50,950 bases of DNA, from positions 1 to 50,950 of the forward strand of contig JALHRB010000024.1 of the NCBI GenBank assembly GCA_022841665.1. The letters run 5' to 3'. A model generated the notes under the pieces. It was not told where the DNA came from. It made no database searches and saw only the letters and a program-made list of their open reading frames with translations. Below, piece by piece: positions 9,480-25,476 of this stretch. The number at the start of each line of letters is the position of its first letter. Position 1 is the first letter of the stretch. The position numbers and the translations under genes were made by a program. This stretch comes from Pseudolabrys sp. (lineage in GTDB: Bacteria; Pseudomonadota; Alphaproteobacteria; Rhizobiales; Xanthobacteraceae).

Positions 9480-9491
9480 CGCCGGCCCGCC

Positions 9492-10007: not shown

Positions 10008-10032
10008 ATCGTGCTCCGAGGCGGGCAGAGCC

Positions 10033-11001
10033 TCAGTTCGACTTCGAAAAGAACGCCCTCAGCTTCGGGCCGTGCTCCGGACTCTGCTTGATGACGCCTT
10101 CCCAGCCCGTGTCATAGGCCTTCTTGCGCCAGGCAGCGGCTGCCGCGCCGTCGAACTTGACGACCTGGATGCCGGCGTCCGCCTGCCGCTTGGTGTCCTT
10201 CGCGTTCTCTGCCTTGAACTCGGCCGCGGCCTCGGCTTCGCCTTGCTCGGCCGCCTTGCGCAGCACGGCCTTCTGCGCGTCGCTGAGCTTGTCCCAGGCC
10301 GTCTTGTTGATGAGCACGGAAACTTCCGCGCTGTAGAAGCCGGGATCGACGCGGTACTTGGTCTTCTCGTGCCAACCGAGATCGAAGATTCCGGTGATCG
10401 GCCACCCATAACCGTCGACGACGCCGCGCTCCAACGCGGTGTAGACCTCGCCCGGCGGCGTCTGCACGACGGTCGCGCCTTGCGCCTGGAAAAAGTCGCG
10501 ATAGACCGGCGTGATGCGCAGCTTCAGGCCGGTGAGGTCGGGACCCGTTATCGGCTTGGTCAGATAGAGATGAAACGGGTTGTCATCGACAAGGCGCGCC
10601 AGGAAGACGGCATTCATCTTTTCGGCGTAGAGCTTCGCCATGTAGTCAAAACCGCCGTTCTTGCGCAGCTCCGCCATGGGCTTCTCGGTGAGCTTCCAGG
10701 CATCGCCTTCAGGCAGGACATTGGTGGTGAAAGCGCCCGTGGTGTTGGCGAGATCGATGACGCCGGTCTGCAGCGCCTTGCCGACCTCGAACGGCGGCAT
10801 CGCCTTCGGCCCGCCGATGTAGTTGATCTGCACCAGCCCCTTGCCGCTGGCGTTGACGCGGTCGATGAATTTCTCGAAGCCCCGCGCATAAGTCGTCTTC
10901 TCGGCGAATGCGGAGACGGCGCGCAGCGTCACTTCCTGGGCGAGCGTCGCGGTGCCGAGCAGCGATGAGGCGATGAGGCCGAGCGCGATTTTCCTGTACA
11001 T
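10033..11001 (-). CDS. TRAP transporter periplasmic binding protein, DctP type
   Basis: A 322-residue DctP-family receptor with a short signal peptide (KIALGLIASSLLGTATLAQ). Mature-domain features include 'INYIGGPKAMPPFEVGKALQTGVIDLANT', shortened here to its ends, and the ligand-binding block 'LKLRITPVYRDF', whose Arg normally salt-bridges a substrate carboxylate. The later block 'ALERGVVDGYGWPITGI' is also typical. The ATG at 11001 is preceded by AGGGGGAAA on the minus strand; the very long open frame upstream of it is antisense to the neighbouring gene and is not coding. The Arg suggests a carboxylate ligand. It heads the operon and is divergent from a thiamine-diphosphate enzyme. Confidence 0.92.
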   Translation of the reverse strand: MYRKIALGLIASSLLGTATLAQEVTLRAVSAFAEKTTYARGFEKFIDRVNASGKGLVQINYIGGPKAMPPFEVGKALQTGVIDLANTTGAFTTNVLPEGDAWKLTEKPMAELRKNGGFDYMAKLYAEKMNAVFLARLVDDNPFHLYLTKPITGPDLTGLKLRITPVYRDFFQAQGATVVQTPPGEVYTALERGVVDGYGWPITGIFDLGWHEKTKYRVDPGFYSAEVSVLINKTAWDKLSDAQKAVLRKAAEQGEAEAAAEFKAENAKDTKRQADAGIQVVKFDGAAAAAWRKKAYDTGWEGVIKQSPEHGPKLRAFFSKSN

Positions 11002-11094
11002 GATGTTTCCCCCTGCCAGCGTTGCGCCGGTCATTTGTTGCCTGGTGACCGGTGATATAGTCATATGGGCGGTATTCACTGTCAAATGGGCACC
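11002..11094. promoter_or_regulatory. Divergent promoter region between the TRAP operon and the ThDP enzyme
   Basis: Both neighbours start outward from this 93-base AT-richer gap, so both promoters must lie here. CATATGGGC near 11063-11071 and CAAATGGGC near 11083-11091 form a near-direct repeat that could be an operator, but this is weak. No clear -35/-10 pair is asserted. Confidence 0.45.
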
Positions 11095-12744
11095 ATGAGC
11101 AATAATTCGACTGTGGCGGCGGTTCTGGCGAAAGACCTGGCGGCGCTTGGCGCGCGGCGCTGTTTCGGCCTGCTCGGTACGGCAAATTACAGGATTTCGC
11201 ACGCGCTGGTCGAAGCCGGCGTCGAGCTTATCTCCGCGCGTCACGAAGGCGGCGCTGCCGCCATGGCCGACGCCTATGCCAAGGCGACCGGCGAGTTGAC
11301 CTTGCTCAGCGTTCATTCCGGCCCGGGATTGACCAATGCGATCACGGGCATCGCCGAGGCGGCTAAGAGCCGCACGCCGCTGCTCGTGCTGGCGGGCGAC
11401 GTGCCGACCGGCGACGTCAAGAGCAACTTCTATTTCGAGCAGGCGGAAATGGCCCGCTCGGTGGGCGCGACGGCCGAACGCGTCCATACTGCGCAGTCGG
11501 CGCGGTCCGACCTCCTGCGCGCGGTGACGCAGGCGATGCAGGGGCGGCGGACGGTCGTGCTCAGCCTGCCGCTCGATGTGCAGAATGCATCGGTGGCGGC
11601 TACCAATACGCCGGCGCAATTGCCGCGGTCGCCCGGCCGGCTGCATCCGGATCCGGCCGCGGTGGCACGGCTGGCCCAGGCGGTCAAGGCGGCCAAGCGC
11701 CCGCTGATCCTCGCGGGGCGGGGCGCGGCATTGTCCGGCGCCGAAGCTGCGTTGATGGCGCTGGCGGAAAAGAGCGGCGCCTTGCTCGCCACGTCGGCGT
11801 GCGGTCACGGCCTTTTTGCGGACGATCCCTGGTCGCTCGGCATATGCGGCGGTTTCTCGTCGCCGGTGGCCGATGAACTCATTTCCGAAAGCGACCTGAT
11901 CCTCGGCTTCGGCGTCAGCTTCACCGGGTGGACCACCAAACGCGGTAAGCTGATCGCGAACGACGCCGTGGTCGCCCAGATCGATATCGAGCCGACGCGG
12001 CTCGGCTACCAGACCGGGGTCGAGCACGCGGTTCTCGGCGACGCGAAAGCGACCGCCGAGGCGCTGCTCGCCACGCTGAAGGGCGGGGCATTCAATCGCC
12101 GCAGCCCGGAGATGCGCGCGCGCATCGTCGCGGGCGACAATCATCATTTTCCGTATCGCGATACGTCGAGCGGCGAGTTCATCGACCCGCGTGTCGTGAG
12201 CAAGGCTGTGGACGCGATTCTGCCAATGGAGCGCGTGGTCGCGTCCGACTCCGGTCATTTCTGCGGTTGGGTGCCGCGCTATCTGCGCGTGCCGAATGCG
12301 AAAGCGTCGTGCCTCAGCCATTCCTTCCAGTCGGTCGGGCTCGGGTTGCCCTCGACGATCGGTCTTGCGCTGGCCAATCCCGGCAAGCTTGCGGTGCTTG
12401 GCGCAGGCGATGGCGGTTTCCTGATGTCGATCGCCGACTTCGAAACGGCCATCCGGCTCGGCCTGCGCATGTGCGTGCTGGTCTACAATGACAGTTCCTA
12501 TGCCGCCGAGGTGCATTACTTCCGGCGGCTAAACCTGTCGGTCGACATCGTGCAGTTTCCCGAAACCGATTTTGCGGCCATCGCGCGCGGCTTCGGCGCG
12601 CGGGGGGCAACGGTGCGCACGCTGGACGACCTTGCGCCCGTGCGCGCGTGGGTGGCCGAAGGCTGTCCGGGTGTGTTCGTCATCGACGCCAAGATCGACC
12701 GCGATCTCGAGGCGGATTGGCACGCCGAGCATTTCCCGTCCTGA
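11095..12744 (+). CDS. Thiamine-diphosphate-dependent enzyme, acetolactate-synthase-like (IlvB family)
   Basis: A 549-residue protein with the three-domain ThDP fold. The N-terminal Pyr domain carries the activating Glu in 'ARHEGGAAAMADAYA' (E51). A central TPP_enzyme_M domain is around residues 190-320. The C-terminal PP domain has the cofactor motif GDG (438-440) followed by 24 residues and N465 ('VYND'). Members make or break C-C bonds next to a carbonyl: acetolactate synthases, oxalyl-CoA or sulfopyruvate decarboxylases and related enzymes. No regulatory subunit follows, so a biosynthetic ilvB role is unlikely. Divergence from the TRAP operon suggests it processes the imported acid. ATGs at 11065 and 11086 are also possible starts. 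Confidence 0.83.
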   Translation: MSNNSTVAAVLAKDLAALGARRCFGLLGTANYRISHALVEAGVELISARHEGGAAAMADAYAKATGELTLLSVHSGPGLTNAITGIAEAAKSRTPLLVLAGDVPTGDVKSNFYFEQAEMARSVGATAERVHTAQSARSDLLRAVTQAMQGRRTVVLSLPLDVQNASVAATNTPAQLPRSPGRLHPDPAAVARLAQAVKAAKRPLILAGRGAALSGAEAALMALAEKSGALLATSACGHGLFADDPWSLGICGGFSSPVADELISESDLILGFGVSFTGWTTKRGKLIANDAVVAQIDIEPTRLGYQTGVEHAVLGDAKATAEALLATLKGGAFNRRSPEMRARIVAGDNHHFPYRDTSSGEFIDPRVVSKAVDAILPMERVVASDSGHFCGWVPRYLRVPNAKASCLSHSFQSVGLGLPSTIGLALANPGKLAVLGAGDGGFLMSIADFETAIRLGLRMCVLVYNDSSYAAEVHYFRRLNLSVDIVQFPETDFAAIARGFGARGATVRTLDDLAPVRAWVAEGCPGVFVIDAKIDRDLEADWHAEHFPS

Positions 12745-12831: not shown

Positions 12832-13632
12832 TCAACCATGGGCGGCCGGATTCGTGGCTGCGGTCTTTTCATCACGGCGTTTCTTTCTATTTTCGAATAG
12901 AATGCCGGGGTCTGGTGAGCCGTCCATAATAGACCTGAGGCGATTAGCAACGTGAAGTAGGTCTGCTCGCCAATCGTCCATGGCCTCTTCGTGGCCTTTA
13001 TAGATAGTCGCAAGAAACTCTAAATCCCAAGGCTCTTCAGACCGCATCTTTATTTGTGCCCCGCCTTTCGCCTTTGAGACTACCAGAACAACATCTGCGG
13101 CGATTGAAGGGCCGAGCAATCCGAGTTTGTCAATGCTTGCTCGAAATATGGGAGCTTCGAATGTAGGAAATTGCATTTCCTTCGTAATGCTTCGATGCCC
13201 CTTTTTTGCCAGACCGTCATAGAATTGCCGCATCATCCACGCATTCAACTTCGCGTCGCCAACCTGCGCATTCAAAGAGTAGACCTCGGCCCAGAGCGCA
13301 GAGACGAGCGCTCTTTTTTCGCGTTCGGTCTGTCTCTCAAGCTTCTGTTCATCCAATTCATACTGGTGAACTCGAGCCTCGCGCTCGAGTTTTGCCTGGT
13401 TTTCTTGCGAGGTGATGAGATTGGAGAAGCCTTTGCTGGTTTGCCACGCCACGATGCAGAGGCCAATGATTGCGCCGCAGAGGGTCGCTATACCGGGATC
13501 GACCTTCACGGCAGTGTAGCTATTGACAGCCCAGAGAAGATTGAAAAGGAGCAACAGGAGGCCGGCACCAAGTGCGATCTTCAATTCAAAGGGAAGCTGC
13601 TTGAACCGCTGCAATACAAAAGACCAATCCAT
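12832..13632 (-). CDS. Two-TM coiled-coil membrane protein, function unknown
   Basis: The 266-residue protein has two hydrophobic helices (about residues 17-36 and 46-64). They are followed by a highly charged heptad-like region (about 75-110, QENQAKLEREARVHQ through QKLERQTEREKR) that should form a coiled coil, and then a soluble C-terminal half. This is an N-terminal membrane anchor with a long cytoplasmic part. I do not recognise the family. Its codon use and base composition are visibly AT-richer than the flanking catabolic genes, which points to acquisition by transfer. The neighbours on the same strand are also orphans. Confidence 0.65.
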   Translation of the reverse strand: MDWSFVLQRFKQLPFELKIALGAGLLLLLFNLLWAVNSYTAVKVDPGIATLCGAIIGLCIVAWQTSKGFSNLITSQENQAKLEREARVHQYELDEQKLERQTEREKRALVSALWAEVYSLNAQVGDAKLNAWMMRQFYDGLAKKGHRSITKEMQFPTFEAPIFRASIDKLGLLGPSIAADVVLVVSKAKGGAQIKMRSEEPWDLEFLATIYKGHEEAMDDWRADLLHVANRLRSIMDGSPDPGILFENRKKRRDEKTAATNPAAHG

Positions 13633-15039: not shown

Positions 15040-15648
15040 TTACGGCTCCCGACCGCCGGCCAGATAGTAATCCTGCATCGCAACGGCTCGGTGGCTATCC
15101 GCTATCATGCGCCGCAGCACGTCATTGAGCTTGAGAAATTCCTCGCGGGTCAAAGTGCCGAACTCGATATCGTTGATACGCCGTTGGATCGGCGCGAGCC
15201 TTTCCAGCGCGGCCCGCCCCTTGGTGGAGACGGTGAGTGTGACGCGGCGCCGGTCGGCAGTATCGACCGTCTTGTGAATGTAGCCGAGCTTCAAGAGGCG
15301 GTTGGTTGTCGCAGTAATAAAAGCGCCCGACAAATGCAGATGATCCGCGACGGTCTTGACGTTGACGTCGCCTTCGCGCGCAAGATGTCCGATCGAAATC
15401 AGCACCGTATACTCGACGCCGCCGAGCCCGATATATTTGCCGTGGCCGGTGCGCAGACGCTCGTGCAGGGCAAAGAAACCGAACAGATTATGGACGAGCT
15501 CGCGAAACGCACGGTCGCTGCCGTTGATAATCAGGTCGGGCCGCGAAATCGTCAGAGGCACGGCGCCGCGTTGCCGGACCGGCGCTTTGCGGGTCGATGC
15601 GACAGCCGAATTGCCGGAAGCGCGCTTGCGTATGGGAGCGGTCATCAA
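15040..15648 (-). CDS. MarR-family transcriptional regulator
   Basis: The 202-residue protein has a winged helix-turn-helix in the middle and C-terminal half. Seen: 'VNVKTVADHLHLSGAFITATTNRLLKLGYI' (HTH, about residues 103-132) and the wing 'DTADRRRVTLTVSTKG' with the DRRR typical of MarR proteins. The N-terminal 35 residues are basic and probably disordered. MarR regulators usually repress adjacent catabolic or efflux genes and are released by a small aromatic or related ligand. It lies 32 bases after the livF-like gene on the same strand, so it may be the last gene of the importer operon and control the whole locus. Confidence 0.9.
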   Translation of the reverse strand: MMTAPIRKRASGNSAVASTRKAPVRQRGAVPLTISRPDLIINGSDRAFRELVHNLFGFFALHERLRTGHGKYIGLGGVEYTVLISIGHLAREGDVNVKTVADHLHLSGAFITATTNRLLKLGYIHKTVDTADRRRVTLTVSTKGRAALERLAPIQRRINDIEFGTLTREEFLKLNDVLRRMIADSHRAVAMQDYYLAGGREP

Positions 15649-15680
15649 ACGGTCGTCTTCTGTTGACGTGACATTGAACG

Positions 15681-16412
15681 TTACGGCGCTCCGGTCTCAT
15701 GGGACGGCGTCCCGCCTAAAAATGCCTGCGTCATCAGCGAATCATTGGCAAGCTCGGCGGCACTGCCAGACGTTACCACGCGTCCCGTTTCCAGTAGATA
15801 GGCACGGTCGGCGATTTTGAGGGTCTGCCGCGCTTTCTGTTCCACGAGAAGAACGGTCAGGCCATCGCGCCGCAGCGACGAAATGAGTTCGAATACTGCG
15901 ACTGTCGTTTTGGGCGCAAGCCCGAGCGAGGGCTCGTCCAGCAGCAGGAGGCGTGGCCGGCTCAAAAGCGCGCGCGCGATCGCGAGCATCTGCTGCTCGC
16001 CTCCGCTCAGGAGGCTTGCCAGCGAATGCCGGCGCTCCCGCAAAATCGGGAAACGCTCGAACATCCCGTCGATGTCTTTTGCCGCTTGCGCCTGATCCTT
16101 GCGGCAATAGGTGCCCAGGTTCAGATTGTCCTCGACGGTCATCCGGCCGAGAATTCCCCGCCCTTCCGGTACCAGCGAGATACCCGCACGCAGATTATGT
16201 TCGGCAGAGTTGGGCGTCAGCGATTTGCCATTATAGGTGATAGCGCCAAGAAACGGAGCCAGGCCCGCGATGGCGCGCACCGTCGTCGTCTTGCCGGCGC
16301 CGTTGGCGCCGATCAGCGCAACGATTTCGCCGGCTTCAATATCGAGGTCGATGCAGCGCACCGCGCGGATCGGCCCATAGAAAACTTCGAGACCGCGAAC
16401 CGTCAGTATCAT
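15681..16412 (-). CDS. Branched-chain amino acid-type ABC transporter ATPase (LivF family)
   Basis: A 243-residue ATP-binding subunit. Motifs: Walker A 'GANGAGKTT' near residues 35-43, signature 'LSGGEQQMLAIARAL', Walker B 'LLLLDEPSLGLAP' and the switch His region 'LLVEQ'. The 'VPEGRGIL' piece marks the LivF subgroup. The start ATG overlaps the stop of the livG-like gene by four bases (ATGA), which indicates translational coupling. LivF-type pumps also carry urea, amides, aromatic acids and other compounds, so the substrate is set by the binding protein. Confidence 0.93.
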   Translation of the reverse strand: MILTVRGLEVFYGPIRAVRCIDLDIEAGEIVALIGANGAGKTTTVRAIAGLAPFLGAITYNGKSLTPNSAEHNLRAGISLVPEGRGILGRMTVEDNLNLGTYCRKDQAQAAKDIDGMFERFPILRERRHSLASLLSGGEQQMLAIARALLSRPRLLLLDEPSLGLAPKTTVAVFELISSLRRDGLTVLLVEQKARQTLKIADRAYLLETGRVVTSGSAAELANDSLMTQAFLGGTPSHETGAP

Positions 16413-17158
16413 GCGGCCTCCGTGCCGAGATAGGCGTCGAGCACAAGCGGATTGGTGCGGACTTCATCCGGCGTGCCTTCGGCGATAAGGGCGCCGAAAT
16501 CGAGCACGTAGAGCTGGTGACACAGGGTCATGACGAATGGCATGTCGTGCTCGATCAGCAGGATCGACAGCCCGCGCTCGTTAAGCCGGCGGAACAAAGT
16601 GCGCAGGTCCGCCGCTTCCTCGGCATTCATGCCGGCGACCGGCTCGTCGAGCAGCAACAGCTTCGGCTTTGCCGTCAGCGCGCGCGCCATCTCGACCTTG
16701 CGCTGGATGCCATAGGGCAGTGTACGGGCGATCACGTCACGATACTGCTCCAGGCCGAAGAAGGTGAGGGCGTCTTCGGCGCGCGTGCGCGCCTCGGCAT
16801 CGGCCCAACTGACCGGCAGAGCGTTGCGCCAAAGCGCGTTTTGCCGCGGCTGCGCGACCAGCAGGTGTTCCCAGACGGTCATGCTGGCGAACAGCCGGAT
16901 GTTCTGGAACGTCCGTGCCACGCCCGATCGCATGATGCGCCATGACGGCCACTGCGTAATGGTCTCACCGCCAAGCACGACCTCGCCGCTGGCCGCCCGG
17001 TAGGCGCCGGTGATGACGTTGAACAATGTCGTCTTGCCGGCCCCGTTCGGGCCGATCACGCCGACGATACGGCCTTCCGGCACGGACAGCGACACGTCGC
17101 TCAGCGCACGAATGCCGCCAAAGCTCTTGCTTACATTGCTCAGGCTGAGAACGGTCAC
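16409..17158 (-). CDS. Branched-chain amino acid-type ABC transporter ATPase (LivG family)
   Basis: A 249-residue ATPase with Walker A 'GPNGAGKTTLFNVITG', 'ARTFQNIRLF' (Q-loop region typical of LivG), Walker B 'LLLLDEPVAGMN' and 'LLIEHDM'. The signature region reads 'LPYGIQRKVEMARAL', the usual LivG variant. The start is taken as GTG at 17158, whose GTGA overlaps the livM-like stop; a longer open frame upstream would run through that gene and is rejected. Confidence 0.93.
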   Translation of the reverse strand: MTVLSLSNVSKSFGGIRALSDVSLSVPEGRIVGVIGPNGAGKTTLFNVITGAYRAASGEVVLGGETITQWPSWRIMRSGVARTFQNIRLFASMTVWEHLLVAQPRQNALWRNALPVSWADAEARTRAEDALTFFGLEQYRDVIARTLPYGIQRKVEMARALTAKPKLLLLDEPVAGMNAEEAADLRTLFRRLNERGLSILLIEHDMPFVMTLCHQLYVLDFGALIAEGTPDEVRTNPLVLDAYLGTEAA

Positions 17159-17994
17159 GAGCGGGCCCTCCGGAAGCGGAGCTTGTCGAGCAAAGGCCGG
17201 TCGAGAATGCCCTGGCGGCGGGTCAGCAGCACCAGCACCAGCAGCACGCCGAAGGCCGCGAGCCGCCAGTCGGCGAGGAAGCGCAGCCACTCCGGCAACA
17301 GCACGAGCAGCGCGGCGCCGACCGCCGCGCCGGCGCCGACAGTCGAGCCACCAAGAATGACGGCGAGCACAAAGTCGATCGAGCGCTCAAAGCCGAAATT
17401 GCCCGGCTCGATATAGACGTAATGATGCGCAAACAGGCCGCCGCTGATCGCGGCAACCGCGGCGCCGGAGCCGAAGGCGCCGACCTTGGTCATTGTCGTA
17501 TTCAGCCCGACCAGATTGGCCGCGGTTTCGTCGTCATGGACGGCGCGCATCTCCAGCCACAGCCGGGAGCGCTCCAGCATGACGATCAGCAAGAATATGA
17601 GGCCCGCCCATGTCCAGATGTATTCGAGCGAAACGTGCTTCATGCCGTGGAAGCCGCCGGCGCCGCCCATGCGGTCGAAATTCAACAGGAAGCTGCGCAC
17701 CACCTCGCCGAAACCGAGCGTGGCGATCGCAAGGTAGATGCCCTTCAGCCGCAGCGCTGGAAAGCCGACAATGACGCCAATGACCGCCGCGACGAGTGCC
17801 GACGCAACGAGCGCTGCCGTGAGTGGCAAATGCATTTCGACCGTGAGGAAGGATGCGACGTAGGCGCCGATCCCCATGAAGCCGGCATTGCCGAGCGACA
17901 GCTGGCCTGTCGCCAGGATGATGTAGACGCTCATGGCGCCAAGGAACAGAATGCCGATGTCGGCAAAGAGGCCGGCGTAATAAGTCGACATCAT
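17155..17994 (-). CDS. Branched-chain amino acid-type ABC transporter permease (LivM family)
   Basis: A 279-residue membrane permease, a little shorter at the N-terminus than many LivM proteins. Family features: 'GQLSLGNAGFMGIGAY' near residue 30, 'FPALRLKGIYLAIATLGFGE' and 'AVIGGSTVGAGA'-like text (VILGGSTVGAGAAVGA). The C-terminus is basic (KLRFRRARS). Four-base start/stop overlaps with both neighbours show a tightly coupled operon. Confidence 0.92.
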   Translation of the reverse strand: MMSTYYAGLFADIGILFLGAMSVYIILATGQLSLGNAGFMGIGAYVASFLTVEMHLPLTAALVASALVAAVIGVIVGFPALRLKGIYLAIATLGFGEVVRSFLLNFDRMGGAGGFHGMKHVSLEYIWTWAGLIFLLIVMLERSRLWLEMRAVHDDETAANLVGLNTTMTKVGAFGSGAAVAAISGGLFAHHYVYIEPGNFGFERSIDFVLAVILGGSTVGAGAAVGAALLVLLPEWLRFLADWRLAAFGVLLVLVLLTRRQGILDRPLLDKLRFRRARS

Positions 17995-18869
17995 ACGCGC
18001 TGCCCGACGTCAGACCGCGCACCGCCCAGCAGGCCCTGCGGACGCAACAGAAGAATGAGGATCATCAGCCCGTAGACGATGAAATCGCGGATCTGCGAAC
18101 CGCCATAAGCGATGGTCATTACCTCGGCGACGCCGATCAGCGGTCCGGCGAGCAGTGCGCCCCACACGCGGGTGGTGCCGCCGATCACCATGACGGCGAT
18201 GGCTTTGAGACCGATATCGACACCGATGTAGGGCGTAATCGCCGCGTAGTGCAGGCTGATCAGGACGCCTGCGGCGCCGGCGAGCAGGCCGGAAATTGCA
18301 AAGGCGAGAAACGTCGTGCGACTGACGGAGACGCCGAGCATGCGCGCAACATCACGGTTCTCCGCGATTGCGCGCAAGGCGCGCCCGGCCGAGGTTCGCT
18401 GCACCAGATAGGCGACGGCGCCGACGAGGACGACGGTGACGCCCACGACGACGACCTGCATCACGCCGATGCGCACCGGACCGACGGTGAAGTCGGCGTC
18501 GAACAACTCGGCTGGCAGCTGCAGCGGGTCGGAGCCCCAGACATTGGTGACGATGTTCTGGAGGATGATCGAGAAGCCGAGCGTCGACAGCATTGGCGTG
18601 ATCAACGGCGCGTCGCGCAGCGGTTCGTAAGCAACTTTCTGGATGATGAACGAGGCAATCGCCGCGCCGGCCATGGCAAAGACCAGCGCGACAGGAAGCG
18701 GAAGATTGCTGGCAATCACGGCAAAGCCGATAAAGCCGCCGAGCATGAACAGTTCGCCGATGGCGATGTTGAGGACGGAGAGAATGCCCATGACCAGCGA
18801 AAAGGAAAGCGCCACGAGCGTATAGACCGCTCCGAGCGTCAAACCGTTCACCAGTTGCTGCAGCAGCAT
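17991..18869 (-). CDS. Branched-chain amino acid-type ABC transporter permease (LivH family)
   Basis: A 292-residue inner-membrane permease beginning 'LLQQLVNGLTLGAVYTLVAL', a classic LivH opening. 'LNIAIGELFMLGGFIGF', 'RAIAENRDVARMLGV' (coupling-helix region) and 'GIGVAEVM'-like text follow. It pairs with the LivM-type subunit to form the channel. A 155-base gap with a strong hairpin separates it from the binding-protein gene upstream, which often allows the receptor to be made in excess. Confidence 0.93.
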   Translation of the reverse strand: MLLQQLVNGLTLGAVYTLVALSFSLVMGILSVLNIAIGELFMLGGFIGFAVIASNLPLPVALVFAMAGAAIASFIIQKVAYEPLRDAPLITPMLSTLGFSIILQNIVTNVWGSDPLQLPAELFDADFTVGPVRIGVMQVVVVGVTVVLVGAVAYLVQRTSAGRALRAIAENRDVARMLGVSVSRTTFLAFAISGLLAGAAGVLISLHYAAITPYIGVDIGLKAIAVMVIGGTTRVWGALLAGPLIGVAEVMTIAYGGSQIRDFIVYGLMILILLLRPQGLLGGARSDVGQRV

Positions 18870-18976
18870 GATTGCCTACCGATCTTTAGCGCCGGCGCTA
18901 CCGTTGCACCCTGAGGTGCCGGCGCATGCCTGGCGAGCATCCCGTTGTGTGACGAAACGCGCCTGAGCGAAACCTT

Positions 18977-19010
18977 GGCGCGTCCGGGCGAGGGGATGCC
19001 CGGACGCGCC
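18977..19010 (-). terminator. Strong hairpin between the binding-protein gene and livH-like gene
   Basis: GGCGCGTCCGGGC pairs perfectly with GCCCGGACGCGCC (13 base pairs, eight-base loop), starting 15 bases after the stop codon of the binding-protein gene. Only a short AAGGTTTC follows on the minus strand, not a full T-tract, so it may act as a partial terminator or as an mRNA-stabilising hairpin for the receptor transcript. Confidence 0.65.
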
Positions 19011-19024
19011 GTTCGTCGTTGCCT

Positions 19025-20227
19025 TTAGCAACCGCCGCCGGCTGCGGAGCAACCGGTGACCTTGGTTTCCCAGGCGCCGTTCTTGCCCTCGACGATGAAG
19101 AAGTTCTTGATCGCGTCACCGTCCTCGCCGAAGTGAATCGGGCCGCTGAACCCGTCATAGCCCTTCAGGTTGGCCATGTAGTCGCGGATCTTGGTGCGAT
19201 CGGCTTCGAGATCTCCCGGCTTGCCGGTGATGCCGGACTTCTTGGCGGCGTCGACGTACATGTTGACGATTTCGTAGATGTTGGCGTCATACATGCTCGG
19301 CTCGATATCCTTCGGCAGGCCCGAGGCGCTGCGCAACAAGGGCTGAAGGTCGGCGACAAACTTTTTCGCCTTCGGCGTCGACATCGTGGCGTAGAAGGTC
19401 GCCGGCGCGATCACCGGAATTTCCGGAGCCGCTTTCAGGATCGCCGAGGAGATGAGCGGCGTGCCGCCGATCACCGGCTTCATGAGGCCCTGACGCTTCA
19501 TTTCGCGCAGCACGGTCACGGCCTGGCTGTAGTCGGCGCCGATGACGATGCCGTCCGGGTTCAAGCTTTTGAGCTTGGTGACTTGGGCGCTGACGTCGAG
19601 ATCGCCGGTGTTGAATGAGATCGGCGAATCACCGTTGAGCACCTTGACGCCGGCGCTTGTGAAAGCCGCCGGCATGATCCTGGTGGCGATGGAGGTCGAA
19701 ACCGCATCCTTGGCGTCGTAGATGATCGCGACCGACTTGGCGCCGAACGTCTTGTTGAAATAGGGCACCGATGTGTTGGCGAGAATGCCTTCGTCGACGG
19801 TGTTGCGGAACGCCCACGGACGGTTGGCTTTGGCGACGCCCGGCTTGGACGAAGCTTGCGACGTTGCGACCGTCTTGAGCTCGTTGGCGATGGGGAAGGT
19901 GACTTCGCAGGCGCTGCTGGTCAAAGGACCGGCAACGGCGAGGACCTTATCGTCGCCCGCGAGCTTGCGCATATTGTTGGCGGCCTGCGCCGGTTTTGCC
20001 GCGTCGTCGAGAATGATGATGTTGAGCTTTGCGCCGTTGACGCCGCCCGCATCGTTGACCTGCTTTTCCAGCATCTTCAACGTTACGGTGTTGGTGCGGC
20101 CCCATTCGGCGAAGGGGCCGCTGCTCGGCACGATGGCGCCGATGTTGACCTGGTTTTGTGCCTGCGCGCCCGATACGAGCGCGGCGGTCAAGAGACCGCC
20201 AATTAAGAACTTGCGAATTTCCAACAC
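19025..20227 (-). CDS. ABC transporter substrate-binding protein, Leu/Ile/Val/amide type
   Basis: A 400-residue periplasmic-binding-fold protein (peripla_BP_6). A signal peptide (EIRKFLIGGLLTAALVSGAQAQ) is followed by 'VNIGAIVPSSGPFAEWG', the usual ligand-pocket opening. 'AGPLTSSACEVTFPIANE' and 'DGIVIGADYSQAVTVLREM' are further pocket blocks. The GTG start at 20227 is chosen for its GGAGGAGAG site; upstream codons would extend into the promoter region. Odd: the C-terminus ends CSAAGGGC, two cysteines that could form a disulfide. It feeds the livHMGF-like proteins and is divergent from the PF06684 gene, so it probably recognises the compound degraded by the locus. Confidence 0.92.
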   Translation of the reverse strand: MLEIRKFLIGGLLTAALVSGAQAQNQVNIGAIVPSSGPFAEWGRTNTVTLKMLEKQVNDAGGVNGAKLNIIILDDAAKPAQAANNMRKLAGDDKVLAVAGPLTSSACEVTFPIANELKTVATSQASSKPGVAKANRPWAFRNTVDEGILANTSVPYFNKTFGAKSVAIIYDAKDAVSTSIATRIMPAAFTSAGVKVLNGDSPISFNTGDLDVSAQVTKLKSLNPDGIVIGADYSQAVTVLREMKRQGLMKPVIGGTPLISSAILKAAPEIPVIAPATFYATMSTPKAKKFVADLQPLLRSASGLPKDIEPSMYDANIYEIVNMYVDAAKKSGITGKPGDLEADRTKIRDYMANLKGYDGFSGPIHFGEDGDAIKNFFIVEGKNGAWETKVTGCSAAGGGC

Positions 20228-20435
20228 GCTCTCTCCTCCGATTGACCGTTCTCGCCCGCAAAGACTGGCGTAGCGCCAGCTTCCAGATTGCATCCGGCGT
20301 TGCCCGAGATACGAGTTCGTGCCCCGCCGAGGAAATAGCTAACATCGAAAAGCGAACTTGAAAAGCATAGTTAGTTAGGCAATTATCCGTCCGGACTGCA
20401 CGTTTAGTGTTCACGCGCACGGCAAAGGGCGGGCC
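20228..20435. promoter_or_regulatory. Divergent regulatory region of the importer and catabolic operons
   Basis: This 208-base gap must hold the promoters of both outward operons. It becomes AT-rich around 20337-20390. AGTTAGGCAAT at 20373-20383 resembles AGTTAGGTATG at 24763-24773 in the other divergent gap of this locus, so both may be sites for one regulator such as the MarR protein. This is two instances only, hence a weak call. Confidence 0.45.
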
Positions 20436-21008
20436 ATGAAAATCAGAAGAATGCTCACTTTTTTCGATGAGATCCGGGAGGCCAGCGGGCATCCGGTCCA
20501 TCCGGTGCTGCGTAAATCCGCCGCGGCCGCTATTGTGCAGAACCCGTTTGCCGGCAAATACGTGGAGGATTTATCGCTGCTTACGAAGGAAAGCGAAGCG
20601 GTCGGCCGCGAGATTTGCGCGATCGCGGTCGCATTGCTCGCGCCCCACAGTCCCGTAAGCTACGGCAAGGCGGCGGTCGTCGGCATTGCCGGTGAACAGG
20701 AACACGGCAATGCCATGCTGACCACCGTGTTCGGCAATGTCATGCGCGAGGCCGCCGGCGGCGGCATCGCGTGGATTTCGTCGTTCACCAAGCGCGCCGC
20801 ACCTGGCGCGACTATCGATATACCACTGGCGCATAAAGACGCACTTTATGTGCGTTCGCATTACGACGGCATCAGCATCACCTTGCCGGACGGTCCGCAG
20901 CCTGACGAAATCGCCGTGATCTGCGCTTACGCGACGCGCGGGCGGGCAAACAGCCGCGTCGGCGGTTTGGCCGCGGCCGACATCAAGGGCGTTGACGGTC
21001 TCACCTGA
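20436..21008 (+). CDS. PF06684 (AA_synth, formerly DUF1185) family protein
   Basis: A 190-residue cytoplasmic protein. Blocks such as 'NPFAGKYVEDLS', 'SYGKAAVVGIAGEQEHGNAMLT', cut here to its core, and 'GGGIAWISSFTKR' are typical of the PF06684 family. Solved structures of this family show a chorismate-mutase-like trimeric fold, and a role in amino-acid metabolism was suggested, but no activity is established to my knowledge. It is the first gene of a three-gene run with the flavin monooxygenase and the enamidase-like gene, spaced by 52 and 14 bases. That context suggests a lactam- or imide-related step. Confidence 0.8.
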   Translation: MKIRRMLTFFDEIREASGHPVHPVLRKSAAAAIVQNPFAGKYVEDLSLLTKESEAVGREICAIAVALLAPHSPVSYGKAAVVGIAGEQEHGNAMLTTVFGNVMREAAGGGIAWISSFTKRAAPGATIDIPLAHKDALYVRSHYDGISITLPDGPQPDEIAVICAYATRGRANSRVGGLAAADIKGVDGLT

Positions 21009-21060
21009 GGGCTCCGCGTCACGCGAAGCGCCCAACATCACGGATCGAACGGAGCGGGTT

Positions 21061-22545
21061 ATGAACGATTGCAAGACCGGAGCGGATCACCTCAAGTCTC
21101 TGAAGGATGGGCGTACTGTCTATCTCGACGGCAAACTGGTCGGTGACGTCACAGAGCACCCGGCCTTCCGGAATGCGGTCAAGGCGTCGGCCGATCTTTA
21201 CGATTTTCAGTCGAGGCCGGAGAACCTTGAGTTGATGACGTTCCGGCCGAACGGTTCGAACCGGCGCGTGAACCGCGCCTGGCAGATGCCGCGGAACTAC
21301 GACGAAATGGTGCAGCGGCGAAAAGCATTGCAGGCCTGGTCGGCGCTGTCGGGCGGCTTTCTCGGCCGCTCGCCGGACCATCTCGCTTCGGCCGTCATCG
21401 GTCAGCGCATGGGCATCGAGGTTTTCCGCAAGCACAACGAAAAACGCGCCAAGGCGTTCGAGGATTATGTCGACTATGCCACGCAGAGCGACTTTTTTCT
21501 CACTTATGTGATCATCAACCCGCAGGCCGAACGCACCAAAGGCTGGGGCGAGCAGGCTGAGGATCTGGTGGCGCGCATCGTCGACGAGGATTCCACCGGC
21601 ATCACCATTCGCGGCGCCAAGATGCTCGGGACCTCGTCGATCATGGCCAATGAGGTATTTGTCGCCAACCTCCAGCCGCTCAAGCCGGGCGAAGAAGACC
21701 TCGCATTCTGTTGTGCGCTGCCGATGAACGCGAAGGGTCTGCGCGTGCTGTCGCGCAAGTCCTACGAGGCGCACGCCGTGTCGGTTTTCGACAACCCACT
21801 TTCGTCGCGATTCGACGAGAACGACGCGCTGATCTATTTCGACGACGTAAAGGTCCCGTGGGATCGCGTCTTCATCCATCGCGACCCCGATGCCTGCCGC
21901 GCCCAGTTTCACGACACGCCCGGCCACGCCTACCAGAACTATCAGGCGCAGATCCGCCTGTCGGTGAAAATCGCGTTCCTTGTCGGGCTTGCCCGTTCGA
22001 TTACCGAGGCGATCGGTACGGTGAAAATTCCGAGCGTGTCGGAACAACTCGGCATGCTGGCGGCGCAGGCCGGGATGGTGAACGCGATGCTGTCCGGCAT
22101 GGAAGCGTCGGGCGAGCAACGAGGCGAGTGGTGGGTGCCGAACAAGCATTTCATGTATTCGGCCCAGGTGATAACGCAGGACCTCTATCCGAAGGTTATC
22201 AACGCCATTCGGGATCTCGCCGGCGGCTCGCTGATCATGTTGCCGTCCTCGATCGCCGATTTCGGCAATCCCGAATTGGCCGCGATCATCCAGAAGACCC
22301 AGCGTTCGGCGACGATGGATCCCGAGCACAAGGTCAAGTTCATGAAAGCCGCATGGGACGCCATCGGCTCGGAATTCGGCTCGCGTCATACGCAATACGA
22401 GATGTTCTACGCCGGAGCGCGTTTCGTTACCTGCGGTCACAGCATGCGCACGTATGATTGGAACAACGCGACCGGCCTCGTCGACAGGCTCCTGTCGTCC
22501 TATGACCTCAAGGATGAGTTGAAGCGCATGCAAGCGGCAAGCTGA
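21061..22545 (+). CDS. HpaB-family FADH2-utilising monooxygenase, large component
   Basis: The 494-residue oxygenase belongs to the 4-hydroxyphenylacetate 3-monooxygenase / HpaB family, which uses reduced FAD supplied by a separate reductase. The acyl-CoA-dehydrogenase-like fold shows in 'DFFLTYVIINPQ', 'GITIRGAKMLGTSS', 'DDVKVPWDRVFIH' and the C-terminal block 'AIRDLAGGSLIMLPSS'. Its N-terminus 'LKDGRTVYLDGKLVGDVTEHPAF' is the family opening, given here only in part. HpaB relatives hydroxylate phenols and also N-heterocycles such as pyrrole-2-carboxylate. The ATG at 21061 has GAGCGGG before it. The reductase partner is probably the gene at 24182-24715. Confidence 0.9.
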   Translation: MNDCKTGADHLKSLKDGRTVYLDGKLVGDVTEHPAFRNAVKASADLYDFQSRPENLELMTFRPNGSNRRVNRAWQMPRNYDEMVQRRKALQAWSALSGGFLGRSPDHLASAVIGQRMGIEVFRKHNEKRAKAFEDYVDYATQSDFFLTYVIINPQAERTKGWGEQAEDLVARIVDEDSTGITIRGAKMLGTSSIMANEVFVANLQPLKPGEEDLAFCCALPMNAKGLRVLSRKSYEAHAVSVFDNPLSSRFDENDALIYFDDVKVPWDRVFIHRDPDACRAQFHDTPGHAYQNYQAQIRLSVKIAFLVGLARSITEAIGTVKIPSVSEQLGMLAAQAGMVNAMLSGMEASGEQRGEWWVPNKHFMYSAQVITQDLYPKVINAIRDLAGGSLIMLPSSIADFGNPELAAIIQKTQRSATMDPEHKVKFMKAAWDAIGSEFGSRHTQYEMFYAGARFVTCGHSMRTYDWNNATGLVDRLLSSYDLKDELKRMQAAS

Positions 22546-22559
22546 CAGTCGAGGGGCCC

Positions 22560-23756
22560 ATGAAAGTTGCGATCGTCAATCTCGGACAGATAGTTTCCGG
22601 CAACTGGCGTGAGCCCTTTGCTGCCGGCGATACGATCGTCACCGAGGACGACAAGATCGTCAGCGTCGGGACGGCCTCCTCCGCTCAGGTCGAGCAGGCC
22701 GACGTCGTGATCGATGCCGACGGCATGACCGCGATACCGGGCCTGATCGATTCGCACGTTCACATCACCTTTGGGGACTATACGCCGCGCCAGCGCACGG
22801 TCGGCTATCTCGAGAGCTATCTGCACGGCGGCACCACGACCTGCATCACTGCCTCCGAAGTGCACGTGCCGGGCCGGCCGCGCGATCCCGAAGGCGTCAA
22901 GGCGCTGGCGCTTGCGGCGCAACGCTGCTTCGAAACCTACCGGCCGGGCGGCATGCGCGTGATTGCCGGCTCGGTCATCCTCGAGCCCGGACTTAAGCCT
23001 GAGGATTTCGTCGAGTTGACCGCGAAAGGCGTCAAGCTCGCCAAAGCCGGGTTCGGCGCGGTCAAGACAGCTTACGATTACGGCCCGCTGGTCAAGGCCG
23101 CCAAGGACGCCGGCATGATCACGACCTGCCACACCGGCGGCTCGTCGATCCCGGGCTCGGGCGCGATTACCGGCGACCATTTGTTGGCATTTCACCCGCA
23201 CGTCTCGTTCCACATCAATGGCGGGCCGACGGCGATGCCGGATTCGCATTTCGAGCGGGTGATCAGGGAAAGCGAGATTGCGCTGCAGGTCTGCACCGCC
23301 GGCAACCTGCGCACGACCTTGCTGTGCGCGCGGCTGGCAGATCAGCTCGGCGCCTTCGACCGCTTTATCATCGCAACGGACACGCCGACCGGTTCGGGCA
23401 TCATGCCGCTCGGCATGCTCTATACGATCGCGCATTGCGCCAGCCTGACCGGGATGGAGCCGGAACGCTTCATTTGCGCGGCTTCAGGCAGCAATGCGCG
23501 GATCTATGGCCTCGACTCCGGTTATCTGGCCGCCGGAAAGGCGGCGGACATTGTCCTGCTCGATGCGCCGGATGGCGGCACACAGAGTTCGGCGCTGGCG
23601 GCCATCAAGCATGGCGATATCGCCGCGATCGGCGGCGTTGTCACGGCCGGCGTGCCCCGCTTTATCGGCCGCAGCCGCAACACGCCGGCGACCACCCGCA
23701 AGGCGCGGGTGGTGCGGTCATCGATCATGCAGGACTTTGCCGCGGCGGCGCATTAG
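22560..23756 (+). CDS. Metal-dependent amidohydrolase, enamidase-like
   Basis: A 398-residue amidohydrolase-superfamily enzyme. Metal-site candidates: HVH at residues 66-68 ('GLIDSHVHITFG'), K169 ('GAVKTAYDYG'), H191 ('TCHTGG'), H218 ('SFHINGG') and D274 ('IATDTPTGSG'). This set and the 'HTGGSSIPGS' segment resemble enamidase of nicotinate fermentation, which hydrolyses the cyclic enamide 6-oxo-tetrahydronicotinate to 2-formylglutarate and ammonia. Placed 14 bases after an HpaB-type monooxygenase, it would fit opening of a hydroxylated heterocycle in its lactam form. Other cyclic amides are possible. The composite N- and C-terminal beta-sandwich segments (DTIVTEDDKIVSVG; GKAADIVLLDAPDGG) are present. 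Confidence 0.82.
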   Translation: MKVAIVNLGQIVSGNWREPFAAGDTIVTEDDKIVSVGTASSAQVEQADVVIDADGMTAIPGLIDSHVHITFGDYTPRQRTVGYLESYLHGGTTTCITASEVHVPGRPRDPEGVKALALAAQRCFETYRPGGMRVIAGSVILEPGLKPEDFVELTAKGVKLAKAGFGAVKTAYDYGPLVKAAKDAGMITTCHTGGSSIPGSGAITGDHLLAFHPHVSFHINGGPTAMPDSHFERVIRESEIALQVCTAGNLRTTLLCARLADQLGAFDRFIIATDTPTGSGIMPLGMLYTIAHCASLTGMEPERFICAASGSNARIYGLDSGYLAAGKAADIVLLDAPDGGTQSSALAAIKHGDIAAIGGVVTAGVPRFIGRSRNTPATTRKARVVRSSIMQDFAAAAH

Positions 23757-23770
23757 CGGCCTCTATTGGC

Positions 23771-24151
23771 TCAAGCCGGGTCGAAATAGTGCAGCTCGAA
23801 CAGCATGCACCCGTTGGTCGACTTGAACGGCCCGTGAAAGGCGCCCGGCGGACGGCATGCATAGGTGTTCGGCGCATAAGCCGTGCCGCCATTTCCCTGA
23901 CGGTCGTTGCCAACGGTCAGATCGCCGGCGACGAGATAAACTTCTTCCCAGTAGTCATGCACGAAGGGCTCGGTGGTGTAGACCCCCGGTGCAAAGCGCA
24001 GGAGGCGTGAGCGGGTTCCGCGCTTGTTCTTTTCATCCAGCGCGCCAGACAGAATCTTCTGCTGGATGCCGGCCGGATAGCCGGCCGGCGTCTCCCAGCC
24101 GGTCGACATGTCGACCGCGTGAAACTCTTTGTGCTCTTTGTTGACCGCCAT
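23771..24151 (-). CDS. Single-domain cupin protein
   Basis: A 126-residue cupin barrel. Motif 1 is recognisable as 'PFVHDYWEEVYLVAGDLTVG' with one His and the Glu pair, and motif 2 as 'YACRPPGAFHGPF'. Such small cupins bind a divalent metal and may be isomerases, hydrolases, dioxygenases or ligand binders, so no reaction is assigned. GGAG lies about eight bases before the ATG. It follows the flavin reductase gene by 30 bases on the same strand and converges on the enamidase-like gene. Confidence 0.8.
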   Translation of the reverse strand: MAVNKEHKEFHAVDMSTGWETPAGYPAGIQQKILSGALDEKNKRGTRSRLLRFAPGVYTTEPFVHDYWEEVYLVAGDLTVGNDRQGNGGTAYAPNTYACRPPGAFHGPFKSTNGCMLFELHYFDPA

Positions 24152-24181
24152 GTCGTTTGCTCCGTTTGGGCGTTTTGAGGG

Positions 24182-24715
24182 CTACCAGCCCTCGAATATG
24201 TGGGCGTCGCGTGGTGGCGCGTCCTGAAAACCGGCGTCGAGCCGGCGATAGCGGCCGCCATAAAAGATCAGGGGTTGAGCCTGTTTGTGCGGCGTCGTGC
24301 GCAGCGCGATGACGTGTCCGACGAAGATCACGTGGTCGCCGCCGTCGAAACGGGCATGGGCCTCGCATTCGAAGCTCGCCAGCGCATTGGGCAGAAGGGG
24401 GACGTCGGTCTCGCCGTTGATTACGATCATGTCCGACCACTTGTCGCCCAGCGGCCGGGCAAAGCGGTTGGAAACGGTTTCCTGCGACTGCGCGAGGATA
24501 TTGATCGCATAGCGTTCGATCTCCATCCAGGCCGGGAAGCTGTGGGCGCGGCGGGCGACGCTGAACAGCACCAGCGGGGGCGCGGTCGAGACCGAGTTAA
24601 ACGAACTCACTGTCATGCCGAGCCGTTCGCCGGCGCGGCTGATGCCGGTCACCACGGCTACGCCGGTCGGGAAGGCGCCCAGGGCATCGCGGAAACGTCG
24701 TTCGTCGAAGCTCAT
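24182..24715 (-). CDS. Flavin reductase (PF01613), probable partner of the HpaB-type monooxygenase
   Basis: The 177-residue protein has the FMN-binding split-barrel features 'FPTGVAVVTG', 'GMTVSSFNSVS', 'PPLVLFSVAR' and 'DHVIFVGHVIAL', near to HpaC-type reductases. These enzymes reduce free FAD or FMN with NAD(P)H and pass it to a separate oxygenase. The only HpaB-type oxygenase in the window is the gene at 21061, so a two-component system is the natural reading even though the two genes are on opposite strands. It may be co-transcribed with the cupin gene. Confidence 0.9.
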   Translation of the reverse strand: MSFDERRFRDALGAFPTGVAVVTGISRAGERLGMTVSSFNSVSTAPPLVLFSVARRAHSFPAWMEIERYAINILAQSQETVSNRFARPLGDKWSDMIVINGETDVPLLPNALASFECEAHARFDGGDHVIFVGHVIALRTTPHKQAQPLIFYGGRYRRLDAGFQDAPPRDAHIFEGW

Positions 24716-24798
24716 GAACGGAGTCTTTGTGGCGCTTGCATTCGGGGAATATTACCTTTTAAAGTTAGGTATGTCACTTAGCAAATAGGGAGGTCCGT
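24716..24798. promoter_or_regulatory. Divergent promoter region with palindromic AT-rich box
   Basis: Between the flavin reductase and DUF2848 genes there is an AT-rich box ATTACCTTTTAAAGTTAGGT at 24751-24770, with TACCT/AGGTA arms spaced nine bases apart. The right half, AGTTAGGTA, recurs as AGTTAGGCA at 20373-20381. This looks like an operator for a regulator of the locus. GGGAGG at 24788-24793 is the ribosome-binding site for the DUF2848 gene. Confidence 0.5.
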
Positions 24799-25476
24799 GT
24801 GCCCGCTTTCACGTTCAGTTGCGCCGGCGGCCGGCAAAAGAGCGGCGAATTCGACACGCTGATCGTGGCGGGGTGGACCGGACGCGACACCCAGGCGCTC
24901 GAGCACCATATCGAGGAACTGGCCGCGCTCGGCGTGCCGCGCCCGTCGTCGGTGCCGGTGTTCTACCGCACCAGCGTCAACGGCCTGACCCAGACCACGC
25001 GGCTCGACGTGCTGGGCCCTGATTCCTCCGGCGAGGTGGAGCCGGTGGTGTTCGGCTTCGACGACGGCATGTGGCTCGGCGTCGGCTCCGATCATACCGA
25101 CCGCAAGCTGGAAACCCTCGGCATAGCGCTGTCGAAGCAGATCTGCGGCAAGGTGATCGGCACCGAATTGTGGCCGCTCGCGGAGGTGATGCCGCATTGG
25201 GACAGGCTCATCATCCGTTCGCATGCCACCATCGACGGCGAGCGCGTGCTGTACCAGCAGGGCCCCTTATCCAACATGCGGACCCCCGGCGACCTTTTGT
25301 CGATTCACGACCGAAGTTCAGGTTTGCGGCCCGGTTCGGTAATGTTCTGCGGCACCGTCGGCGCCATGGGTGGCATCCGGCCCGCGTCTCGTTTCGAAAT
25401 GGAAATCGAAGATCCGGTACTCGGCCGCCGCATCGGCCACACTTACGATATCGTGGCCCTGCCGGTCATCAGCTGA
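24799..25476 (+). CDS. DUF2848 family protein (possible FAH-like hydrolase fold)
   Basis: The 225-residue protein begins at GTG with GGGAGG five bases before it. Conserved-looking blocks are 'LIVAGWTGRDTQALEHHI', 'FYRTSVNGLTQT', 'VGSDHTDRKLE', 'SKQICGKVIGTELWPL' and 'GSVMFCGTVGAMGGI'. I recognise this pattern as DUF2848 (PF11010). The 'GSDHTDR' and 'PGSVMFCGT' segments recall the metal and turn regions of fumarylacetoacetate-hydrolase-like proteins, which act on oxo-dicarboxylates, so a late step on the ring-opened product is possible. That function is an inference. Confidence 0.75.
   Translation: MPAFTFSCAGGRQKSGEFDTLIVAGWTGRDTQALEHHIEELAALGVPRPSSVPVFYRTSVNGLTQTTRLDVLGPDSSGEVEPVVFGFDDGMWLGVGSDHTDRKLETLGIALSKQICGKVIGTELWPLAEVMPHWDRLIIRSHATIDGERVLYQQGPLSNMRTPGDLLSIHDRSSGLRPGSVMFCGTVGAMGGIRPASRFEMEIEDPVLGRRIGHTYDIVALPVIS

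Follow-up and report, generated by a model that had tools for sequence, protein, structure and literature searches.

A gene cluster of Pseudolabrys sp. as a candidate pathway for hydroxylation and C-N hydrolysis of an N-heteroaromatic acid

Which compound is degraded by a bacterial gene cluster that joins an importer, an HpaB-type oxygenase and an enamidase-like amidohydrolase, and what do PF06684 (DUF1185) and DUF2848, two protein families without assigned function, contribute to it? The question is raised by positions 15040-25476 of the window, by which we mean the whole 50,950-nt stretch of Pseudolabrys sp. contig JALHRB010000024.1. From the observed gene content, co-occurrence in other genomes, alternation of hydrolases and active-site signatures we infer a pathway in which an N-heteroaromatic acid is taken up, hydroxylated to give a lactam and hydrolysed at a C-N bond, together with its individual chemical steps, the roles of the regulator and importer, and a candidate substrate; we regard the general mechanism as moderately probable. 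The cluster comprises the following genes:

15040..15648, minus strand: MarR-family regulator (Pfam MarR_2, 8.8e-08; start codon uncertain)
15681..16412, minus strand: LivF-type ATP-binding subunit (PF00005, 4e-30; NCBIfam LivF, 3.9e-67, under the model cut-off)
16409..17158, minus strand: LivG-type ATP-binding subunit (PF00005 and PF12399; NCBIfam LivG, 1.4e-71, under the cut-off)
17155..17994, minus strand: LivM-type permease (open reading frame named from its place and homology)
17991..18869, minus strand: LivH-type permease (open reading frame)
19025..20227, minus strand: periplasmic binding protein of the importer (PF13458, 2e-55)
20436..21008, plus strand: PF06684 (DUF1185) protein (Pfam E 2.9e-61, 206.4 bits against a gathering score of 27; PDB 2qtp, 2.6e-42)
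21061..22545, plus strand: HpaB-type oxygenase component (HpaB_N, PF11794, and HpaB, PF03241; E 1.3e-83 and 3.7e-55; Arg103/His107/Tyr149)
22560..23756, plus strand: enamidase-like amidohydrolase (PDB 2VUN, E 4.1e-94; Lys162 at the place of Glu164 in 2VUN)
23771..24151, minus strand: cupin (Cupin_7, 26.8 bits, just below the 27-bit cut-off; cupin by predicted fold)
24182..24715, minus strand: flavin reductase component (PF01613, E 5.3e-41)
24799..25476, plus strand: DUF2848 protein (PF11010, E 7.5e-77; FAA_hydrolase, 6.8e-4, under its cut-off)

The enamidase-like enzyme and its PF06684 partner

The amidohydrolase matches the enamidase of Eubacterium barkeri nicotinate fermentation (2VUN), an enzyme that opens 6-oxo-1,4,5,6-tetrahydronicotinate, over its full length (query residues 2-384, E 4.1e-94), and its earlier label as enamidase-like therefore holds; Pseudolabrys sp. 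Root1462 (93%) is among its nearest named enamidase relatives. In an alignment of the window's protein with 107 related sequences and 2VUN (109 rows), the positions that we take to be the metal ligands (H66, H68, H191, H218 and D274) are kept, with H68, H191, H218 and D274 present in every scorable row and window residue 66 being His in 101 and Gln in 7 of the 109 rows. The window's enzyme differs from that of E. barkeri in carrying Lys162 for Glu164, presumably the bridging ligand of 2VUN; in other amidohydrolases the usual bridging ligand is Lys. Position 162 is Lys in all 85 relatives of at least 58% identity, whereas 17 of the 21 relatives below 50% have Glu there and the other 4 have Lys.

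The two types of enamidase keep different company within 10.5 kb. Lys162-type enamidases (n = 90) have PF06684 nearby in 73 cases, an HpaB of at least 36% identity in 39 and a class A flavin monooxygenase in 12, one of these together with HpaB; none has a 6-hydroxynicotinate-reductase-like gene. Near the 17 Glu164-type enamidases we found PF06684 in 13 cases, UPF0280 in 11 and a 6-hydroxynicotinate-reductase-like gene in 10, but HpaB in none. The loci that combine PF06684 and enamidase with a class A flavin adenine dinucleotide-dependent monooxygenase and no HpaB include L048, L050, L060, L062 and L163, and some such loci also hold a DUF4286/EthD-like protein and a GntR regulator. HpaB adjoins or lies near the enamidase in many loci, and on a quick enamidase tree (108 rows) the HpaB label changes 16 times, at least 8 of them forced by well supported branches, so that gain or loss of the oxygenase partner must have happened repeatedly. 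An aldehyde dehydrogenase (at least 30% identity to a succinate-semialdehyde-dehydrogenase relative) lies near 9 of the 90 Lys-type enamidases; an aldehyde acid may thus be formed in some relatives, and the enamidase/PF06684 pair may be used for more than one substrate.

A Sulfitobacter plasmid carries MarR, two PF06684 genes, UPF0280, the reductase-like gene (annotated there as hypothetical), a molybdenum hydroxylase and enamidase together. This locus and that of Rhizobium etli 8C-3 resemble the window in their enamidase relatives and, in the annotated Sulfitobacter locus, in PF06684, and differ from it in that the molybdenum hydroxylase, the reductase-like gene and UPF0280 replace HpaB. The reductase-like gene itself has no Pfam or NCBIfam match, and relatives at 66-71% identity bear the 6-hydroxynicotinate reductase name in several plasmid records. 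It was not found in the window's draft genome, in a search that gave matches in three of five other genomes (G165, G148 and G163, picked as positives). We therefore rejected a reductive nicotinate pathway for the window, whose enamidase, unlike that of E. barkeri, pairs with an oxygenase and not a reductase.

In 289 genomes of the class, an enamidase-like gene occurs in 23 and PF06684 in 56, and all 23 enamidase genomes carry PF06684 (Fisher 5e-19, uncorrected for kinship or genome size); PF06684 lies within 15 kb at 20 of 27 enamidase places in this sample. Of 25 plasmid enamidase records we looked at six loci, and PF06684 lies near the enamidase in three of them (Agrobacterium, Thermomicrobium and Sulfitobacter). 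Since the pair also adjoins 6-hydroxynicotinate-reductase-like genes, PF06684 appears to be the usual partner of enamidase, belonging to ring opening rather than to HpaB. Here the preliminary description is changed, the tie of PF06684 being to the enamidase.

Two other members of the family have a published link to ring chemistry (PMC7913881, parts consulted): TgnF, of a trigonelline degrader, where it is said to promote the oxidation of succinic semialdehyde, and HcdD, which sits with a cupin-like protein and a flavin mononucleotide (FMN) reductase in 7-hydroxycoumarin degradation and for which attempts at showing an effect failed. The hcdDEFG genes of Pseudomonas mandelii 7HK4 resemble the window in bringing a PF06684 protein, a cupin-like protein and an FMN reductase together, the cupins being likened by description only; they differ in their lactone substrate and in a fourth gene for an alcohol dehydrogenase (PMC7913881, same parts).

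The HpaB core and its alternating hydrolases

The oxygenase, with PF11794, PF03241 and a neighbouring PF01613 flavin reductase, has the domains of a group D two-component flavin monooxygenase, and scores 287 and 281 bits against NCBIfam HpaB models whose cut-offs are 885 and 480. Its nearest solved relatives are phenol hydroxylases. We take Arg113/Tyr117/His155 of the E. coli-type HpaB 6qyh to be the phenol-site trio of 4-hydroxyphenylacetate 3-hydroxylase; the window's protein keeps the arginine (Arg103) but has His107 and Tyr149, whereas Tyr and His occupy these places in the five solved phenol hydroxylase chains compared, of which three are almost the same. In our alignment of 103 HpaB sequences (95 distinct), all 100 with letters at the signature columns (92 distinct) combine His107 with Tyr149, whether they are linked to enamidase, amidase, hydantoinase or none of these. 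Because this site is common to both linkages and unlike that of phenol hydroxylases, enamidase-linked and amidase-linked HpaB may share one substrate class, which is probably not a 4-hydroxyphenol.

The hydrolase beside HpaB varies. A phylum sample yielded relatives in 5 of 398, too few, and class and family samples were added; the count covers 59 HpaB copies of at least 50% identity in 58 loci, which share genomes with our 80 enamidase-anchored loci, and leaves aside copies below 50% and six further places at or above it. Within 9 kb of these copies we found enamidase in 14 cases, amidase in 17 (one also with hydantoinase A/B) and hydantoinase A/B alone in 2, one of the amidase matches (L171) being the source of the amidase query; enamidase and amidase together were found in 0 of 59 (p 0.006). 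We searched 16 amidase-type genomes and one enamidase-type control for enamidases (E 1e-40): a window-type enamidase (67%) was present in one of the 16 (G702), enamidases of 41-43% in 13 and none in 2. The G702 enamidase is on the same contig as both HpaB copies, at a distance of 11-15 kb, and the amidase is beside those HpaB copies. The two modules can therefore coexist, and strict exclusion was given up; the amidase seems usually, not always, to stand in place of the enamidase/PF06684 pair. The G702 contig (G702:C3; L232, with L067) holds PF06684-enamidase, importer and HpaB plus a separate reductase-HpaB-cupin-amidase unit.

On a quick HpaB tree (74 labelled rows, including some duplicates) there are at least four switches between enamidase and amidase/hydantoinase. 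Within the 50-70% identity band, each of the 16 amidase-only HpaB copies is accompanied within 9 kb by a cupin and a flavin reductase, and 5 of them by DUF2848. Eight of the 11 plasmid records with HpaB were looked at. Plasmids of Roseateles, Caballeronia and Thioclava unite flavin reductase, HpaB, cupin, amidase, DUF2848, Liv importer and MarR, and the Roseateles cupin, annotated as DUF4437, is 71% identical to that of the window; at the same threshold an amidase was also found in the Paracoccus and Cupriavidus loci and not in those of Burkholderia and Rhizobium ACO-34A. Arthrobacter StoSoilB13 has a PF00795 carbon-nitrogen hydrolase, whose best NCBIfam match, to deaminated glutathione amidase, scores under the cut-off of that model; it adjoins DUF2848, HpaB (41%), cupin and reductase. 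That an amidase takes the enamidase's place in sister loci, and that hydantoinase A/B (HyuAB) or a carbon-nitrogen hydrolase is near HpaB in a few others, fits an amide or lactam intermediate. One run, L171:2194-10668, contains HyuAB (best NCBIfam matches the caprolactamase subunits, below cut-off), amidase, HpaB, cupin, an isochorismatase-type hydrolase and DUF2848, and appears as another variant of the pathway.

The preliminary description had also placed DUF2848 and the cupin in the pathway. Both are in the cluster, but their companions, in genomes as distant as Arthrobacter, are HpaB and the flavin reductase, and they occur without enamidase; they belong to the HpaB core. The class sample has 36 DUF2848 places, of which only 2 (G000 and G064) adjoin enamidase, and we rejected it as a general enamidase partner; of 20 further places fetched, 5 have an HpaB relative (35-59% identity) near DUF2848, the remaining 14 places falling outside this count. 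The predicted DUF2848 model is weak (predicted local distance difference test, pLDDT, 69), and its first ten Foldseek matches, which include 2-keto-3-deoxyarabinonate dehydratase, are of fumarylacetoacetate hydrolase (FAH) type with a TM-score over the query (TMq) of only 0.38-0.43; an hmmsearch against 4maq gave 0.0086, and the FAA_hydrolase Pfam match is sub-threshold. DUF2848 may thus have an FAH-superfamily fold. The cupin model (pLDDT 86.5) resembles TM1459, acetylacetone dioxygenase and KdgF. DUF2848 has a second context in L170, L172, L175, L179, L183 and L185, where it stands, with no HpaB near, beside a conserved gene run, in some cases with an amidase-like gene; from their sequences we take the genes of the run to be putative parts of a tripartite ATP-independent periplasmic (TRAP) transporter.

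Candidate pathway, substrate and rival explanations

In the proposed pathway, MarR would control the catabolic island, the Liv-type ATP-binding cassette importer would take up an N-heteroaromatic acid, and the flavin reductase would supply reduced flavin to HpaB. HpaB would hydroxylate the ring next to the nitrogen; the resulting hydroxy-heterocycle would have a cyclic (en)amide as its tautomer, and the enamidase-like enzyme would cleave the C-N bond by hydrolysis. Because PF06684 accompanies enamidase whatever made the lactam, it may assist this step as a tautomerase or an enamine/imine (ring-chain) hydrolase, roles suggested by gene partnership. On the HpaB side, the FAH-like DUF2848 and the cupin might act on the 2-oxo-acid or on ring-chain forms. 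The preliminary description is thus supported in part, by co-occurrence, enamidase homology and the amidase swap; its order of import, hydroxylation and ring opening is retained, with the roles of PF06684, DUF2848 and the cupin reassigned.

Pyrrole-2-carboxylate is our leading, unproven candidate for the substrate, put forward tentatively; a six-membered ring would be compatible as well. 5-Hydroxypyrrole-2-carboxylate, equivalent to 5-oxo-pyrroline-2-carboxylate, would be opened to 2-oxoglutarate and ammonia, and the same intermediate could hydrate to 2-hydroxy-5-oxoproline/2-oxoglutaramate, cleavable by an ordinary amidase, which would explain the amidase that replaces the enamidase pair in sister operons. 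We prefer this substrate because its 5-hydroxylated form is the tautomer of an enamide, because ring opening would yield 2-oxoglutarate, for which no additional enzymes are required, and because its monooxygenase is listed in group D. A pyrrole-2-carboxylate monooxygenase of Rhodococcus is said to have been described by Becker in 1997. Table 1 of PMC6165268, in the part consulted, lists pyrrole-2-carboxylate monooxygenase (EC 1.14.13.130) among group D two-component monooxygenases, as it does HpaB, so that the Rhodococcus enzyme resembles the window's HpaB by class description rather than by sequence comparison. More broadly, PF06684 could be a general helper wherever enamide rings are opened, in reductive nicotinate-type and in oxidative pathways, acting on ring-chain forms either as a tautomerase or as an enamine/imine hydrolase of the RidA kind. 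The cluster could then hold the genes still missing for the aerobic breakdown of pyrrole-2-carboxylate, in which amidase, HyuAB or carbon-nitrogen hydrolase would be alternatives to enamidase/PF06684; we put this combined proposal on the same tentative footing as the substrate.

The presence of UbiD and UbiX next to some of the HpaB copies points to a heteroaromatic acid. That UbiD proves pyrrole-2-carboxylate to be the substrate was rejected on the relationships of the UbiD of a Bradyrhizobium locus (L097), given below; a second UbiD type (L087) is nearest to 7pda. At L168:6817-9646, three tandem related genes, the first nitronate-monooxygenase-like, have HpaB, UbiX and a pair of UbiD genes as neighbours.

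Several observations weigh against the proposed pathway. No HpaB was seen in 42 of the 80 enamidase loci, some of which are on short contigs, and beside 11 of the 90 enamidases of the Lys type a class A flavin monooxygenase stands instead of HpaB, so the enamidase/PF06684 pair is not tied to one substrate. Near three of the six plasmid enamidases (L160, L162 and L165; two Rhodococcus and Haloarcula) neither PF06684 nor HpaB was found, and 26 of the 59 HpaB copies lack any of the hydrolases sought within 9 kb. If both G702 HpaB copies are counted as having both hydrolases, the p value for exclusion rises from 0.006 to 0.12. The His/Tyr signature is wider than the clade, with His in 7 and Tyr in 8 of 8 distant HpaB copies. 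The L097 UbiD is nearer to HmfF (E 4e-92) and AnInD (5e-60) than to PA0254 (3e-26), which the portion of the literature consulted gives as pyrrole-2-carboxylate decarboxylase. Finally, 2-oxoglutarate as the product would leave the cupin and DUF2848 without an obvious task.

Among the rival explanations, two are unlikely to nearly the same degree. The substrate might be a hydroxypyridine or pyridine carboxylate, whose six-membered ring the enamidase-like protein would open as KpiC does, with DUF2848 in the role of the FAA hydrolase KpiD. Hydroxylated pyridines remain aromatic and are poor enamides; moreover, 6-hydroxynicotinate-reductase-like genes are absent from all 90 Lys162-type loci, and the alternation with amidases suits hydrolysis better than the oxygenative cleavage of KpiC. 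The FAH-like appearance of DUF2848 is in favour of a pyridine, as is the six-membered ring of the 2VUN substrate, as told in the consulted part of PMC7356986. According to that part, the kpi cluster of Arthrobacter sp. IN13, which degrades 4-hydroxypyridine, brings together a flavin monooxygenase, an amidohydrolase-family ring opener, a hydrolase and an FAA hydrolase; its monooxygenase, ring opener and FAA hydrolase have candidate counterparts in the window. Unlike the window's enzyme, KpiC is a reported dioxygenase of 475 aa with 28% identity to enamidase, HpaB is not named there, and PF06684 and cupin are not named in the text sections covered (PMC7356986). A shade less probable is that two independent pathways lie side by side, an HpaB-reductase-cupin-DUF2848 core with the importer and a PF06684-enamidase pair for another compound. 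Each set does occur without the other, and G702 holds an amidase-type HpaB unit and the enamidase pair on one contig, but in the window HpaB and enamidase are co-directional and 14 bp apart, the two lie close in many other loci, and a window-type enamidase was found in just one genome among the 16 of amidase type.

Two further rivals can be given little credence. Amidases and HyuAB proteins are not confined to lactams, and with phenol hydroxylases as its closest solved relatives, HpaB might hydroxylate a phenol or aryl amide from which the hydrolases remove an exocyclic amide only, no N-heterocycle being involved; the replacement of Tyr/His by His/Tyr in 100 of 100 scorable relatives and the presence of enamidase and PF06684 in 6-hydroxynicotinate-reductase-like loci make this very unlikely. 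Least probable of all is the oxidation of indole or an indole carboxylate to an oxindole lactam, to which the resemblance of the L097 UbiD to HmfF and the indole-3-carboxylate decarboxylase AnInD would point: UbiD occurs in a minority of loci, the single UbiD match of the window's genome is on another contig, and genes of anthranilate type did not catch the eye next to the window, though no systematic search for them was made.

Under the pathway of hydroxylation and C-N hydrolysis that we favour, PF06684 and DUF2848 gain a testable setting, the former as a partner of enamidase-type ring opening and the latter as part of the HpaB-cupin core. An HpaB group is described whose active-site residues are unlike those of phenol hydroxylases and in which the C-N hydrolase varies while the oxygenase is constant. 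If the substrate is pyrrole-2-carboxylate, a long-known monooxygenase activity would be linked to genes. Among the matches listed in a literature search on DUF2848, DUF1185, enamidase and pyrrole-2-carboxylate catabolism, which left most subscription journals outside, no title or abstract opening describes this cluster.

Gene layout and neighbourhood

The "one block" of the preliminary description has all its named genes in place with family matches, but they form four facing units and not one operon: MarR-Liv (minus), PF06684-HpaB-enamidase (plus), cupin-reductase (minus, convergent) and DUF2848 (plus). The gap between PF06684 and HpaB is 52 bp and that between HpaB and enamidase 14 bp. The Pfam scan covered all named genes of the cluster except the LivM- and LivH-type permeases. 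PF06684 and HpaB each have one match in the window's 3.85 Mb draft genome. A scan for promoters and terminators gave no more matches than shuffled sequence.

The genes also occur together in other genomes, as both the enamidase-anchored and the HpaB-anchored loci show. Among the 80 enamidase-anchored loci, a MarR homologue is found in 34 and homologues of the LivM- and LivH-type permeases in 31 each. The full order from MarR to DUF2848 recurs in four (L029, L030, L031 and L043), which argues against chance, and others keep parts of it.

Downstream of DUF2848, at 548 bp, lies an M20 peptidase-type gene. Upstream of the cluster, window positions 12832-13632 encode a 266-aa protein for which Pfam gave no family at E 0.001, and positions 8166-12744 hold the TRAP transporter genes DctM and DctP beside a thiamine-pyrophosphate enzyme, possibly a separate catabolic locus.

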